From an uncultured Candidatus Poseidoniales archaeon (GTDB lineage Archaea; Thermoplasmatota; Poseidoniia; Poseidoniales; Thalassarchaeaceae): 36,917 nucleotides of DNA. The position numbers were made by a program, and so were the translations under genes. The notes below the pieces were generated by a model, which saw nothing but the letters and a program-made list of their open reading frames with translations, did no database searches and was not told where the DNA came from. Location: the NCBI GenBank assembly GCA_902511005.1, contig CABXDN010000011.1, forward strand, positions 1-36,917. The letters are read 5' to 3'. Shown piece by piece: positions 23,761-30,435 of the stretch; within the stretch, counting starts at the first letter, position 1, and every line of letters starts with the position of its first letter.

Positions 23761-24954
23761 TCAACCACGAATTTTAGAAAGTCCAGTTTCAATAAAGCCA
23801 GTAATTCTCTGCCAAGGGATAACAAATCTACCACCTGCTACAACAATCATGAATAATGATGCTGAAATAACTTTACCATAAGTCAATTGTAATTCCAATG
23901 ATTCTTTGACTTGTCCTGACCATTGAGAACCCTCCAGAACTGCAACAAAGGAAATCAAAAAGTCATCAAATTCGAGAGCTAGGGCCGTAGTTATAGCGAC
24001 TACAGTGATTATACTAAATAAATGAGCCATATGGCCATTTATGAGGTTATTAAACTGATTAACATATTCTGGATCTCTTTTGGACGCTTCCGGAAGAATA
24101 GATGCATATTCTAAATTTGTAATTACAGCTAATCCAGATTCTAAGAATAATAATAATAATATTGCTACTGTCAATAAATCAAATGCTAAAGGAGATATTA
24201 GCCCTCCATATAATGTCGCCTCACCTATTTGAGCTGAAAGTGGTTGGAGACCTACGTCAACAGCAGTAGTAACGCCTTCAAATGTTAACATAGCATGTAT
24301 TCCAATTACTATCAAGAAATAACTTGTAGCCCATGTAATCATTCTCTTCGAAAGACTCCATATTCCTATCAAACCTGCGAGTATTGGGGCAAAAACAATT
24401 CCGAGAAATACTAATTCGAAAAAGAATTCTAATGGGGCAAATACGAGATTTATATGATTAAACTTATCTTCATTTTGACCGAATGGAAGATAAAAACCTT
24501 GTGTAACTATGCCGATTAGCCAAGATACAAGAAAAGGAAGGAGAAACCAAGCAGCCATTAAGCCAGAAAATACTCTCTTAATCAATAATTGTAATTTTTC
24601 TCCACGAGTTAGTATAACGACCCATGATCCAGTAATGATAAAACAAAGTATAACAGGTACAGTAAATGTGTCAAAACCAGTTTCATTGACTCCCGTAAGG
24701 AGATCTGGGATTACAGTATCCCCATTAGATTTCATCCAAGCAATTCCTCGAGTATGTTCATATGATGGGCACCAACCTTCTGGGCCTGAATTTGCAACAA
24801 ACTGTCCGGAGCAAGAACCGAATAACTCATTCATTTTACGCATTATTAGCAAAAGAGACATGGTTGAAATTATTTGTAAAAGAAGTACCTGCCAACGTAA
24901 ACGTAACTTCGAAATATGAAGTGTTTTAGATTCAGGGACTACATCCATAACCAT
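23761..24954 (-). CDS. Polytopic membrane protein of the DUF58 cassette, unknown
   Basis: About 397 residues with roughly eight transmembrane helices, including WQVLLLQIISTMSLLLIM near the start and VISASLFMIVVAGGRFVIPW near the end. Between the first two helices is an extracellular loop with two Cys (GSCSG ... GWCPSY) that could form a disulfide. Start: GTG 24963 sits two bases after GGAGAT, and ATG 24954 lies about 11 bases after GGAG; I use the ATG. Its start is 16 bases after the DUF58 gene on the same strand, so it belongs to that operon. I know no biochemical function; a link to envelope assembly is inferred from its neighbours. Confidence 0.72.
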   Translation of the reverse strand: MVMDVVPESKTLHISKLRLRWQVLLLQIISTMSLLLIMRKMNELFGSCSGQFVANSGPEGWCPSYEHTRGIAWMKSNGDTVIPDLLTGVNETGFDTFTVPVILCFIITGSWVVILTRGEKLQLLIKRVFSGLMAAWFLLPFLVSWLIGIVTQGFYLPFGQNEDKFNHINLVFAPLEFFFELVFLGIVFAPILAGLIGIWSLSKRMITWATSYFLIVIGIHAMLTFEGVTTAVDVGLQPLSAQIGEATLYGGLISPLAFDLLTVAILLLLFLESGLAVITNLEYASILPEASKRDPEYVNQFNNLINGHMAHLFSIITVVAITTALALEFDDFLISFVAVLEGSQWSGQVKESLELQLTYGKVISASLFMIVVAGGRFVIPWQRITGFIETGLSKIRG

Positions 24955-24969
24955 TATTCTCACATCTCC

Positions 24970-26223
24970 TTAAATTGTTCTAACTTGTAATAATGCCTGA
25001 GATAAATCAACACTAGGGGTCCAATCGATTACAATAGCGCCATAACCTGAAAGTGCAGTTAGTCTATTTTGTCTTTCAAGTTTTAAGACTTCATAAGCCA
25101 TTCTTGGGATTCTACTTACCAATCTTTCCAGATCAATACTGCTAGGCGATAAAACAATAACTTCATGACCTTTTCCTGAAAGATTTCGTATAGCTGATAA
25201 CGTTGTACCATCTCCTTCTAGGCTACTAATAATAAAAACAGGCGAACCTCTAGAGATTCTAGGGGAAAGGGCGTTTGTTACTGCTTGTAATGGCATACTG
25301 CCTCTAGATTCTACAGCAGCGAGTTGGCTCAAAACTTTGTAATGCTGTTTATCTCCTGTCTCAGGAGGAAGAAAATCCATTCTTTCACCATATGTAACTA
25401 AAGACACAGAGTCTCTTCTTTTTATGAAATAATTTGCAATTGAAGCCGCCGCAACAGTACCCATCTCCAAAGGATTTTTCAGTACTGTGCCTATTCTAGC
25501 CACGTCCCTAGTGTCAAGAATTATGAAAACATCAGTTACCGCATCTCTAGTCTTCTCATTAACCATTAAATCACCGGTTCGTGCGAAGGCCTTCCAATTA
25601 ATCGAACGAAATGAATCACCAGGAAAGTACTCTCTGAGCGAATAAAACTCCATACCCTGACCAGGAGTTTTTAGAGTAGTAGCTCCAGTATACATTTTAG
25701 GAACATTTGATCGAATTAATGCTTCTTCTACATCCCTAACTTGAGGGAATACTGTGATATCTGAACGATCACTTAGGCTAGTTTCTGAAACGAATAAGTT
25801 GAATGCATTTCGATAACGTATAGATGTTGGACCGATTGTATAATGGCCTCTCAATGGACACCTGACTGTGTAACGAATAGTTGTAGTCTGTCCAGGACCA
25901 AGATTCATACGCATAAGATTGACTCCTTTACGCATTTTCATTTCATGAGGAACGTTATCAAAAACTTCTAGTTGCTGAGTACGACGATATGACTTATTTT
26001 TGACGGTCAAAATAACGTTAATATCATCGCCTTTATACACATTAACTGCTGAAACTTCACGAGTGATTTCTAAATCTGAATGCCCCTCTACCCAGCCATT
26101 TATTGCAATGAAAGAGATAAATGTTAGCCCTATAATCATTAATTGGAAATTAGAAATCATCATACCAATTAATATCAAACTTATACCGCTTGTAAAGAGT
26201 ATAGCTGCCTTACGTGTCCACAT
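24970..26223 (-). CDS. DUF58-domain protein with vWA-like fold
   Basis: About 417 residues from ATG 26223 (MWTRKAAILFTSGIS), with GGAGGT five bases upstream. Two N-terminal transmembrane helices (about 5-45) are followed by a beta-rich region (LTVKNKS ... RCPLRGHYTIGPTSIRYRN). The DUF58 core follows: LREYFPGDSFRSINWKAFAR at about 195-215, then FIILDTRD, a MIDAS-like start of a von Willebrand A fold. DUF58 proteins usually pair with MoxR ATPases and transglutaminase-like or DUF4350 membrane proteins. Here the DUF4350-like gene overlaps its 5' end by 14 bases, while no MoxR gene is present in the window. Function is unproven; a scaffold or metal-dependent adhesion-type role is inferred. Confidence 0.85.
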   Translation of the reverse strand: MWTRKAAILFTSGISLILIGMMISNFQLMIIGLTFISFIAINGWVEGHSDLEITREVSAVNVYKGDDINVILTVKNKSYRRTQQLEVFDNVPHEMKMRKGVNLMRMNLGPGQTTTIRYTVRCPLRGHYTIGPTSIRYRNAFNLFVSETSLSDRSDITVFPQVRDVEEALIRSNVPKMYTGATTLKTPGQGMEFYSLREYFPGDSFRSINWKAFARTGDLMVNEKTRDAVTDVFIILDTRDVARIGTVLKNPLEMGTVAAASIANYFIKRRDSVSLVTYGERMDFLPPETGDKQHYKVLSQLAAVESRGSMPLQAVTNALSPRISRGSPVFIISSLEGDGTTLSAIRNLSGKGHEVIVLSPSSIDLERLVSRIPRMAYEVLKLERQNRLTALSGYGAIVIDWTPSVDLSQALLQVRTI

Positions 26224-27862
26224 ATTCAACCTCCTCTTCTGAGTTTGTAGAGCCCCATTCTTTAATTCTCTTTACTATACCAACAAGTTCATCTGGCTTG
26301 TACTTACGATCTTCGAAAATAAATTTCGTAAGAACTGGATCTTCAACCATTCGCTGTAATTCTGCGGCTGGCAAAGCATCAAATTCTTCCCTAGATAATG
26401 TATTTAAATTTCTAACTCTTGTTAACAATACTTGCCTTATTTTTTCAGGTTTTTGATAATATTCATAACGCCTTGCATCACCAAAACCATAGTATATTAT
26501 TCTAAAAACATGGCGCCAATTCTCAGGATCTTCTTTTCTAATTAAAACCGCCTCTAGAGTTATAAATAAACCGAGGAAGAGGAGAAGCATGGCCATCCAA
26601 TCATTTGTAAAATAGATTAAAAGATAGTACATTAAATTGTAAGTATCACCAAATAGAGTAGGCTGCTGATGCCTAGATTCATCGAAAATAACAATAGCAT
26701 TAGATGAACTTTGAGCACTAGAATTCCCAATAAGTAAAGATTCGGCAATTATGTCTAATGCCCACTTACGGTTATCATTTGAGGGGACTATGTCATCAAT
26801 ACCTGAATAGAATGAATCATCGTATAATGAATTTGTCAAAATTGACCCGTCGGCTACAAAATGAACTCGACCAGAGTCCGCACCAACGCACAAGCGATCA
26901 GCACAATAGCGAACATATACTGCAAAAGGGCCTACTTCATCTCCATCAATACCAAAAGCAGAAGAACCTATAGTTAGATTCCCATCATCATTAGTGTCGA
27001 GATATGAGTCAAGAGTAGATTTACCAATATCATACCTATTTTCTACAGGATTATATGAACCCGCATTAAATGCTGAGGGTTGATTCGTCAATAAATTATA
27101 ACTTTCTGAAAAGTCCCATTCAGTTTCAGAAATCCATCTATGGGCGCATAATCCCGCTGATTCTTTTGTTAGGCCAGCAGGGAAGGTGGAAATATCATAT
27201 GGATCAGTATCTAAAATATCTATATATCCATCTGTATCTGTATCTCTCAGGCATGGATGAATACTTGATAATGAACCTGAATTTGTTGTGAAATTAAATG
27301 CAGACGAAGTATTAACCCAAATGAAATTATAATCTAACTCCGTGGCATAAGCTTCGCCATCATACAAAGTGTGACCAGAGAATTCTAAACCAAACTGATC
27401 AGCCAGTGTAGAAGAATACCCTTTATCATCCATTAGCAAGACAGTGCCGCCAGCCTCGACAAATTCGTCAATAGCCAATATTTCTGAAGTTGTGTAACCA
27501 GAACCTTCAGAAAATTCAATTACATTTTCATCACCGGTAAATCTAGGTAAAGAAATAGTATCTTTCTCAACCCCAGAAATAACGAAAATAGCCTCTTCCG
27601 GATAATCAATCTCACTCAGAAGTAGAGGACTTGAGACTAGTGCATTTGTTTCGATGCCCATGCTATTAATTTCTGCTCTAAAACGGCCTAAGTCATTCCA
27701 ATCGTCTCCATAGGCAGATTGCTGAGTTTGTCCCTCTGTAACATAAGTTACCGCTATAGTTGAAACAAGAAGTAGGAGCAATATCCAAAAGGCTCCAACT
27801 AACATATTTCGACGAGTTTTGAGAGCGATTAACTTCTGGCTGTAATCGCGGAAATTTGCCAT
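26210..27862 (-). CDS. DUF4350-like membrane protein
   Basis: About 550 residues from ATG 27862 (MANFRDYSQK), with GGTGGGGAG upstream. One N-terminal helix (MLVGAFWILLLLLVSTIAV) and one near residue 425 (WMAMLLLFLGLFITLEAVL) bracket an extracellular domain. The domain begins like a DUF4350 Rossmann unit: DDWNDLGRFRAEINSMGI, then EFVEAGGTVLLMDDKG. In the middle lies a calcium-loop motif, DTDTDGYIDILDTDPYD, of thrombospondin type 3 style. The cytoplasmic tail is charged. In bacteria and archaea DUF4350 genes accompany MoxR/DUF58. It overlaps the DUF58 start by 14 bases, showing tight coupling. Molecular function is unknown. Confidence 0.78.
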   Translation of the reverse strand: MANFRDYSQKLIALKTRRNMLVGAFWILLLLLVSTIAVTYVTEGQTQQSAYGDDWNDLGRFRAEINSMGIETNALVSSPLLLSEIDYPEEAIFVISGVEKDTISLPRFTGDENVIEFSEGSGYTTSEILAIDEFVEAGGTVLLMDDKGYSSTLADQFGLEFSGHTLYDGEAYATELDYNFIWVNTSSAFNFTTNSGSLSSIHPCLRDTDTDGYIDILDTDPYDISTFPAGLTKESAGLCAHRWISETEWDFSESYNLLTNQPSAFNAGSYNPVENRYDIGKSTLDSYLDTNDDGNLTIGSSAFGIDGDEVGPFAVYVRYCADRLCVGADSGRVHFVADGSILTNSLYDDSFYSGIDDIVPSNDNRKWALDIIAESLLIGNSSAQSSSNAIVIFDESRHQQPTLFGDTYNLMYYLLIYFTNDWMAMLLLFLGLFITLEAVLIRKEDPENWRHVFRIIYYGFGDARRYEYYQKPEKIRQVLLTRVRNLNTLSREEFDALPAAELQRMVEDPVLTKFIFEDRKYKPDELVGIVKRIKEWGSTNSEEEVEYVDT

Positions 27863-27950
27863 GCTGCTCCCCACCTAGTCGATATGACAAACAACGAGCC
27901 CGAAGTTCGACTTAAGACGCTTGTGAACGAATGGACGGTTATGCATCATA

Positions 27951-28193
27951 CTATTCTGATAGTTTGATTACCTTACCAATACTTTCAATTTCTTCAACAG
28001 GAACAGACAGAAGACCATTTACAGTAGGCCAAGGTAGGAGTTGAGGGTTGATACCTGTTTCAATCATCACTAAAATATTAGTAATTTGTCCACTCCCTAT
28101 ATCTATGCGAAAATCGGCAACATTGCCTAATTTATCGCCAGCACTATCATGGACCTCAAGATTGACTATTTCTCGACCAAAGGTTACTGGCAT
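27951..28193 (-). CDS. Single PRC-barrel protein
   Basis: 80 residues forming one PRC-barrel: VTFGREIVNLEVHDSAGDKL at the N-terminus, then NVADFRIDIGSGQITNILV and VPVEEIESIGKVIKL. The start (ATG 28193) lies 10 bases after the Cdc48 stop, so both are on one transcript. Single-domain archaeal PRC-barrel proteins include 16S-processing-like factors and the CdpB division proteins that bind SepF in haloarchaea. Which of these this is cannot be decided without alignment. No membrane segment is seen. Confidence 0.82.
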   Translation of the reverse strand: MPVTFGREIVNLEVHDSAGDKLGNVADFRIDIGSGQITNILVMIETGINPQLLPWPTVNGLLSVPVEEIESIGKVIKLSE

Positions 28194-28203
28194 ATCATGT
28201 CCC

Positions 28204-30435
28204 TCACGCTGATTCTATCCCTGAAAGAGTATCTGGTGTACGACGAACAGATTCAAGTCCACTAGTAAGTCGAGCCTCCATTCGATTGTAATAATCCATC
28301 ATTTCCTCTGTAATTGTAGGCCTGACTCTATTAATTGCTTCTTCAAAATGTTTTTTCGATACACTTTTCTTCCCCGCGCGCATAGAAATTAATGCGGCTT
28401 CTCTACAAATTGCTTCAATATCCGCCCCCGTATAATTAACTAATTTTGGCGCCAGTTCTTCAATCTTGAACTTACCTAGAGGCATCGGTTCAGAATGTAT
28501 CTTCAAAATTGCCTTTATTGAATCAATATCTGGAGGAGGTATATGGAGTACACGCTCAAATCTCCCGCTCCTTAACAAGGCTGGATCTAACATTTCTGGC
28601 CGGTTAGTTGCTGCGACAACAATCACGCCTTCCATCGAGTCGACTCCATCCATAGAACTCAGTAATTGATTGACTACTCTATTCATTACATCAGAACCTT
28701 CGCCAGTATTACTCCTTCTTACGCCGGCAATACTTTCAAATTCATCTAAAAAGATAATTGAAGGACTAGATTGTTTCGCCTTCTTGAATAATTCACGTAC
28801 TGCTTTCTCAGAGTCTCCAACCCATTTAGAAATCAACTCAGGTCCTTTAATCGTAATAAAATTCGCTTTCGCTTCATTAGCAATAGCCTTTGCAATCAAA
28901 GTTTTACCGGTCCCTGGTGCACCGAAAAGAACTATTCCTCTAGGAGGAGTTATGCCGAAATGTTCGAACATTTCAGGCTTCGTTAAAGGCCATTCAATAC
29001 TCTCTTTCAATCTCTCTTTAACCTCTGATAGACCCCCTACTTGTTCCCAACTGACTTCAGGTACCTCGAGATATATTTCTCTCAGAGCGCTTGGTTCTAT
29101 TTCCTTAATAGCTAGTTTGAAATCCGCCATTCGGACTTCCATTTTCTCTAGAACTTCTGCGGGAATATGTTCTTCATCTAAATCAATATCTGGGAGATAA
29201 CGGCGGAGTGCCTTCATAGCGGCCTCTCTGACCAAAGCAGAAATATCTGCACCGACGAAACCATGAGTATTATCTAATAGCCAATCTACATCAAAATCAT
29301 CACTTATTGGCATGCCACGTGTATGGATGCCGATAATTTCTGCACGACCGTTTTTATCAGGGACTCCAATCTCTAATTCTCGATCAAAACGCCCTCCGCG
29401 ACGTAGTGCTGGATCAATAGCATCTGGACGATTTGTAGCACCTATTACAATTACATTATCTCTTCCTTGCATACCATCAAGTAAAGTCAATAATTGTGCT
29501 ACAACTCTACGTTCAACTTCGCCACTGACGTCTTCTCTTTTTGGAGCTATTGAATCTAACTCATCTATGAAAATTATTGCTGGAGCATTAGCGGCCGCTT
29601 CATCAAAAATCTCTCTAAGTTGCTTTTCACTTTCACCATAATATTTCGAAATGATTTCAGGGCCATTGATTGAAGTAAAATTAGCCTTTGTTTCAGATGC
29701 TACGGCCTTAGCTATTAGCGTTTTTCCAGTACCAGGTGGGCCATATAATAACACGCCACGAGGCGGATCTATACCCAGTCTGCGGAACAAAATGGGATGT
29801 TTCAAAGGTAATTCAATCATTTCTCTAACTTTCTGTAATTGTTCACCAATTCCACCTATATCCTCATATGAAATTGTCGAAATCGGTTGACCTCCGTCTT
29901 CCTCCTCATCAACTGGTTCTTCTTTGATAATTATTTCAGTATCTGGTAAAACTTGGACTATCCCCTTCGGAGTCGTTTGAACTATTTGAAAAGGTAATGC
30001 TTCAGCAAAAAGAGTCATTCCTGGGATAAATATCCTATCGCCTGAGACTACTGGCCTCTTGTTCAATCCTCTGCGTGCAAAACCCTCTATCCCAGGACCA
30101 AAACGTACTTTCTGTTGTTTGGCCATTACTGGACTCAGAATTAATTTCTGACAGGGTTGAGTTTCTACTTTACGGATTGTTACTTTATCGCCTAAGGATA
30201 CTCCTGCATTCTTTCTTATGATTCCATCAACTCTGATTACACCTAAATTTGCATCTTCAGGGCGGCATCTCCATACGATAGCCGCTGTCTTCTGCTCCCC
30301 TGTAATCTCTACAATATCTCCTGGTTTTAGATTTAAATCATTATCGAAAGGAACTCTGGCTCGACCATGGCCTACATCACTTGGTATCGCCTTGGCTACT
30401 CTAAGTTGTAAGTCTTCTATTCCCTCATCTGACAT
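28204..30435 (-). CDS. Cdc48/VAT-type AAA ATPase
   Basis: A hexameric unfoldase that feeds proteins to the proteasome or dismantles complexes. 743 residues. The Cdc48 N-domain (about 1-175: [20 protein letters not shown] and onwards) is followed by D1 with Walker A GPPGTGKT (232-239) and Walker [11 protein letters not shown], then D2 with GAPGTGKT at about 508 and [10 protein letters not shown]. Arginine-finger regions are [11 protein letters not shown] and [11 protein letters not shown]. The SD preceding ATG 30435 is GAGGG. The D2 Walker A carries Ala in place of the first Pro, as is common. It is divergent from the aldehyde dehydrogenase gene. It may partner the PRC-barrel gene encoded next. 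Confidence 0.96.

Follow-up and report, generated by a model that had tools for sequence, protein, structure and literature searches.

In the MoxR-DUF58 clusters of the MRP subfamily, of which the mycobacterial moxR1 operon is an example, a PF07726-type MoxR ATPase is found with a DUF58 protein and membrane partners, and the review that treats them calls the relation between DUF58 and MoxR unproven even in mycobacteria (PMC12067865). A working mode is offered by NorQ/NorD, in which, by the account in PMC9976466, a MoxR-class hexamer binds a von Willebrand factor A (VWA) protein and remodels a membrane enzyme. GIFT domains take their name from GldG and IFT52, and sugar binding has been proposed for them (PMC7226087). 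Here we analyse a DUF4350-DUF58 gene cassette from an uncultured Candidatus Poseidoniales archaeon of the family Thalassarchaeaceae. The window is the whole stretch analysed, 36,917 nucleotides (nt) of contig CABXDN010000011.1 (assembly GCA_902511005.1), called C11 below. Its cassette consists of three open reading frames (ORFs) on the minus strand. They encode a DUF4350-like membrane protein (D4350A, 26210-27874, 554 amino acids), a DUF58 protein with N-terminal hydrophobic stretches and a DUF11/BatD-like segment (D58A, 24970-26229, 419 amino acids) and an all-helical polytopic membrane protein (polyA, 23761-24963, 400 amino acids). D4350A and D58A overlap by 20 nt and 6 nt separate D58A from polyA; a first-pass annotation of the window had described the genes as overlapping or abutting.

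That annotation had also found no MoxR in the window, and proposed that MoxR is remote or that another AAA protein, Cdc48, serves the cassette. A profile search of the genome's contigs confirmed the absence, with no PF07726 match on C11, and supported the first proposal. Two PF07726 matches in the genome exceed the cut-off; they lie on contigs C2 and C6, and both MoxR genes are intact. The genome also holds two DUF58 genes. C6 carries a complete paralogous cassette with D4350B, MoxR-B, D58B and polyB in this order. On C2, a solo MoxR lies between a gene for a translation initiation factor of the aIF-2/5B type (642.5 bits with the NCBIfam aIF-2 model, cut-off 554.75) and a ParA-type ATPase. The lack of MoxR beside the window cassette is therefore not that of a MoxR-less genome; MoxR is remote. 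The two MoxR genes, the complete second cassette and a second, better-kept calcium-type loop in D4350A could not be seen in the first-pass annotation.

The three loci are conserved beyond the source genome. We call its family, Thalassarchaeaceae, f1; f2 is probably Poseidoniaceae, and f3, the third family of the class, probably Marine Group III. We counted 50 window-type loci from 49 f1 and f2 genomes. MoxR is beside the cassette in none of them, and the order cdc48-PRC-D4350A-D58A is kept in 47, the other three being contig ends (L060, L141) and an inversion (L062). Named records with closely related genes come from Candidatus Thalassarchaeum/Thalassarchaeaceae and Poseidoniales; 78 of 80 place cdc48, PRC and DUF58 as expected, contig ends cut the other two, and none has MoxR there. 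Of 40 loci of the paralogous cassette, 39 keep MoxR between D4350B and D58B, and in the other, L106, a contig end cuts it. The solo MoxR stands between the aIF-2 factor and ParA in 39 of 40 loci; in L085 only the factor is beside it. The 40 include L196 (G192:C31), a contig assigned to an f2 genome that carries a MoxR with 93% identity to the one in the f1 genome and is likely contamination. The picture of a cassette without an adjacent MoxR holds for all 50 orthologous f1 and f2 loci and does not extend to f3, where the fetched cassettes read DUF4350-MoxR-DUF58 in 11 of 11 cases.

At least 116 of 148 f1 genomes carry the solo MoxR at an identity of 80% or higher. In 39 of 39 copies of it the Walker A, Walker B, sensor 1 and arginine motifs were readable, 33 by the strict pattern and 6 by reading variants. 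The gene can be seen at positions 8700-9683 of L004 and in homologous loci, its place being fixed in two families, and in seven f2 genomes it shares a contig with the window-type cassette, about 46-133 kb away. Its loss in genus g7 (G065-G080; 11 of 16 genomes without it) was considered as a sign of dispensability and rejected, as the same 11 genomes also miss the adjacent translation factor; the region seems to have dropped out in assembly or binning. Two genomes of other genera, G030 and G031, show the factor and no intact solo MoxR match, and in G031 the factor is at a contig end. Two window-type arrangements were also peculiar. In L062 (G181) the D4350A-D58A-polyA block is inverted with respect to cdc48-PRC and runs into the contig end, either by real inversion or by misassembly. 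G020 has two copies of cdc48-PRC-D4350A-D58A (L042 and L043), one of them with unknown bases, from strain mixture or duplication.

Further information about the history of the cassettes was obtained from trees. The first DUF58 tree took all 79 rows and the MoxR tree 69 of 70 (L113, a split gene, was left out); a further tree took 57 of the 79 DUF58 rows, after 9 long-branch and 13 near-duplicate rows were dropped. Topology tests used author-selected sets of 32 of the 79 DUF58 rows and 34 of the 70 MoxR rows. The solo MoxR copies form one clade (support 100/100) and MoxR-B another (95/100). The DUF58 tree of 32 rows groups the A copies, the B copies and the MoxR-bearing cassettes of families f7, f11 and f28 (96/96); the matching group of solo MoxR, MoxR-B and f7/f11/f28 is weak in the MoxR tree of 34 rows (83/69). 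Constraining MoxR-B to join f7/f11/f28, as in the DUF58 tree, costs 1.26 log units and is not rejected (p 0.22). A MoxR-bearing cassette that was duplicated, and from which one MoxR was then displaced, is compatible with both trees, and this history is unproven because the deep MoxR branches are too weak. Two other origins were tried. An A-like f3 cassette that is the direct orthologue and still holds its MoxR was rejected for f3a (p 0.005, DUF58 tree) and not for f3b (p 0.095), and we do not claim an orthologous intact copy of the window cassette in f3. Descent from an old MoxR-less lineage of the phylum was also rejected (p 0.006), in a test with long branches in play that covered three of the four genomes G202, G221, G235 and G263.

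On balance, we lean slightly towards the reading that the window cassette is one of two differentiated copies of a MoxR/DUF58 system, whose own MoxR was displaced to the solo locus and acts in trans. We hypothesize that a cassette of a DUF4350-like protein with a GIFT ectodomain, MoxR, DUF58 and a polytopic protein was duplicated before f1 and f2 split. The MoxR of the window copy would have left it, to stand now alone between the aIF-2/5B-type gene and ParA. The solo MoxR hexamer would act in trans on membrane-anchored D58A, in the way that MoxR rings act on VWA partners, a working mode that we draw from NorQ/NorD. It could thereby remodel or assemble a membrane complex of D58A, polyA and the GIFT protein, the last being extracellular and perhaps stabilised by calcium. 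The genes with their fixed places, the remote MoxR genes and the fold resemblance are observations; partnership, direction of events and activity are what we infer from them.

Several results weigh against this proposal. The best objection is the close neighbour that the solo MoxR has in ParA: in 35 of 38 loci the gap between them is no more than 100 nt, so the solo MoxR may have another partner. Rate covariation over 34 of the 49 genomes, without L196 and L043 (the G020 copy with unknown bases), did not single out the solo MoxR: D58A gave 0.28 with it, 0.40 with MoxR-B, 0.47 with ParA and 0.20 with Cdc48. The positive control, the linked pair MoxR-B/D58B, reached only 0.27, which indicates little power; the test did not recover known neighbours, and covariation did not enter the verdict. 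In the MoxR tree the deep branches are weak, with 84/45 for solo MoxR joined to MoxR-B, and joining the solo MoxR to f3a (p 0.096) or to f3b (p 0.23) is not rejected. Elsewhere in the phylum, G202 (99% complete), G221, G235 and G263 hold one MoxR each, beside another DUF58, and at least one DUF58 without a nearby MoxR, so that a cassette may share a MoxR or go without. The MoxR-less cassettes that occur in f7, f22 and f26 are not kin of D58A (p 0.006). The MoxR-less DUF4350-DUF58 cassettes L122, L133 and L135 (G221, G202 and G235) belong to a separate DUF58 clade.

These single-MoxR genomes, the covariation of D58A with MoxR-B and the short distance between solo MoxR and ParA would all suit a window cassette that shares MoxR-B in trans, leaving the solo MoxR to another task, perhaps with ParA. 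We consider this rather unlikely. Most genomes across the order hold at least two MoxR and two DUF58 genes together, and by the rejection of a common lineage given above the MoxR-less cassettes of the single-MoxR genomes are not kin of D58A. Moreover, MoxR stays in place in three loci where ParA is 752, 831 and 3395 nt away from it, and the covariation test failed its positive control. It could also be that the cassette uses no AAA ATPase now and that its GIFT, DUF58 and polytopic proteins form a static membrane complex, as the MoxR-free surroundings of all 50 loci and 80 records would allow. The canonical metal ion-dependent adhesion site (MIDAS) of VWA proteins is D-x-S-x-S. D58A reads D-T-R-D at this site (almost every A copy has D-[STA]-R-[DE]), which fits a protein that has lost its ATPase. 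However, D58B also departs from the canonical motif (D-S-R-S) and keeps MoxR as its neighbour, so the altered metal site is no marker of MoxR loss. With a total tree length of 2.95, D58A also comes close to the MoxRs (2.58 and 2.69) in conservation, and we regard a cassette without ATPase as improbable.

The remaining candidate is Cdc48, which the first-pass annotation had rightly placed just upstream on the same strand (28204-30435, minus strand; TIGR01243, 971.8 bits, cut-off 802.65; CDC48_N, 90.1 bits, cut-off 35.1). Between it and the cassette is a gene for a PRC-barrel protein (27951-28193, minus strand; PRC, 34.9 bits, cut-off 21.2), which begins 10 nt after cdc48; it is a linked neighbour, its membership in the cassette not being shown. 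The short gaps and the order cdc48-PRC-DUF4350-DUF58, kept in nearly all f1 and f2 loci and named records, are what speaks for Cdc48 as the ATPase of the cassette. However, an unrelated, divergent aldehyde dehydrogenase gene on the other side of cdc48 is equally linked, in all 46 loci with room for it (the other 2 of 48 are at a contig edge). In f3 the linkage is absent: all 10 genomes with a CDC48_N match have Cdc48 and DUF58 on separate contigs. Consequently, the linkage of cdc48 does not go beyond general synteny. The cassette is inverted with respect to cdc48 in L062, and the low covariation of D58A with Cdc48 points the same way, in a test of low power. Short as the gaps are, a conserved promoter-like element (BRE/TATA-like, BRE being the transcription factor B recognition element) lies between PRC and D4350A, with the sequence CACAAGCGTCTTAAG in the window (27911-27925, minus strand). 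We read it as a putative TATA-like promoter. In this gap its f1 pattern was matched in 28 of 31 cases and its f2 pattern in 13 of 18, the element being shared across f1 genera and variant in f2. The same patterns were found upstream of other genes in 0 to 3 of up to 31 cases. The exception is CARDBup, with 6 of 14, and there the matches displayed fall within the last part of the gene before it or close by. Cdc48 is probably a mere neighbour, and its service as the ATPase of the cassette is unsupported and, in our judgement, very improbable. Given that the aldehyde dehydrogenase shares this linkage, and that a promoter-like element stands between the cassette and cdc48, MoxR probably acts in trans.

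D4350A deserves separate attention. Its likely start is the ATG at 27862, which agrees with the end coordinate of the first-pass annotation. It is laid out as an N-terminal membrane helix, a GIFT-like ectodomain, two C-terminal membrane helices and a conserved C-terminal helical domain. The DUF4350 profile (PF14258) gives 26.1 bits, below its cut-off of 30.4; all 18 aligned relatives match it at E<=1, the best of them at 2.8e-9. The predicted structure, of middling quality (pLDDT, the predicted local distance difference test, 63.9), models the ectodomain as a GIFT fold. At about residues 50-390, it aligned best to the N-terminal domain of IFT52 (Z 13.9, 199 residues, 3.5 Å). Chain G of oligosaccharyltransferase (OST) structures, which we take to be OST48/Wbp1, followed at Z 12-12.7, and GATase1-like rows ranked lower. 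The two best Foldseek rows had E-values of 3e-3 and 7e-3 and probabilities of 0.96 and 1.00. At the sequence level, the IFT52_GIFT profile matched 5 of these 18 relatives at E<=1 (best 0.019), and a sequence search of the PDB returned only IFT52-type proteins (E 0.73 and 1.6).

The first-pass annotation had remarked on a thrombospondin-type calcium loop in this protein. A loop like that of thrombospondin type 3 is indeed present at residue 211; it is confined to f1. The conserved one is a second loop, D-x-N-x-D-G at residues 293-301, which is readable in 77 of 77 aligned f1 and f2 rows. Counted per row, with some genomes occurring twice, two D-x-[DN]-x-[DN]-G loops are found in 56 of 60 f1 rows and one, by alignment the second, in 17 of 17 f2 rows; f3 has at least one such motif in 10 of 11 rows. 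Most D4350B copies are without a loop (none in 17 of 21 f1 and 14 of 18 f2 rows). From their motifs, both D4350A loops are calcium-type and their calcium binding is putative. As to the other cassette proteins, D58A matches DUF58 with 75.5 bits (curated cut-off 23.4), and for polyA we found no Pfam or NCBIfam match and, with its helical model, no significant fold match in the PDB. Among the named records with closely related genes, one with a 98% identical protein is isolate AG-319-P11, presumably a single-cell genome, as AG codes denote.

Taken as a whole, the cassette is a known kind of system in split form. It resembles the MoxR-DUF58 clusters outlined in PMC12067865 in having DUF58, membrane partners and a PF07726 MoxR in the genome. 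It differs from them in that MoxR is outside the cassette, PRC and Cdc48 are neighbours, and the partners are a GIFT-like DUF4350-type protein and a polytopic protein without known relatives. With NorQ/NorD (PMC9976466) and RavA/ViaA (PMC10585395), as far as these accounts describe them, it shares the expected mode, an AAA+ ring and a VWA-like partner acting on a membrane enzyme. In contrast to them, the DUF58 here has no D-x-S-x-S and the partner genes are at separate loci. The GIFT-fold lead is the most interesting side result. With the GIFT-domain proteins GldG, IFT52 and OST48/Wbp1 (PMC7226087), the resemblance lies in the D4350A ectodomain model, which aligns to IFT52 and to OST chain G. 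D4350A differs from GIFT proteins in having about 10-15% identity to them, no Pfam match over the cut-off, extra calcium-type loops and different anchoring and partners. Among the papers listed on MoxR together with DUF58 and DUF4350, on MoxR in Poseidoniales, or on archaeal DUF58 with VWA and AAA proteins, we found no description of this split. It is tempting to speculate further, although we hold it as a long shot, that these archaea run two specialised GIFT/DUF58/MoxR membrane machines for assembly of cell-surface glycans or glycoproteins, the ATPase of the first being encoded in its operon and that of the second at a remote fixed locus. The GIFT ectodomain would then be an archaeal relative of the OST48/IFT52 fold that is coupled to an AAA+ remodeller.

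In summary, our results indicate that the absence of MoxR beside DUF58 does not mean that the ATPase is missing: two whole archaeal families keep a pair of cassettes of which one is MoxR-less, and MoxR genes lie elsewhere in the genome. This raises the question of which MoxR serves which DUF58, for which the two copies provide natural paralogues in the search for specificity residues. The link of the DUF4350-like partner to the GIFT fold suggests, in turn, what its extracellular part may bind.

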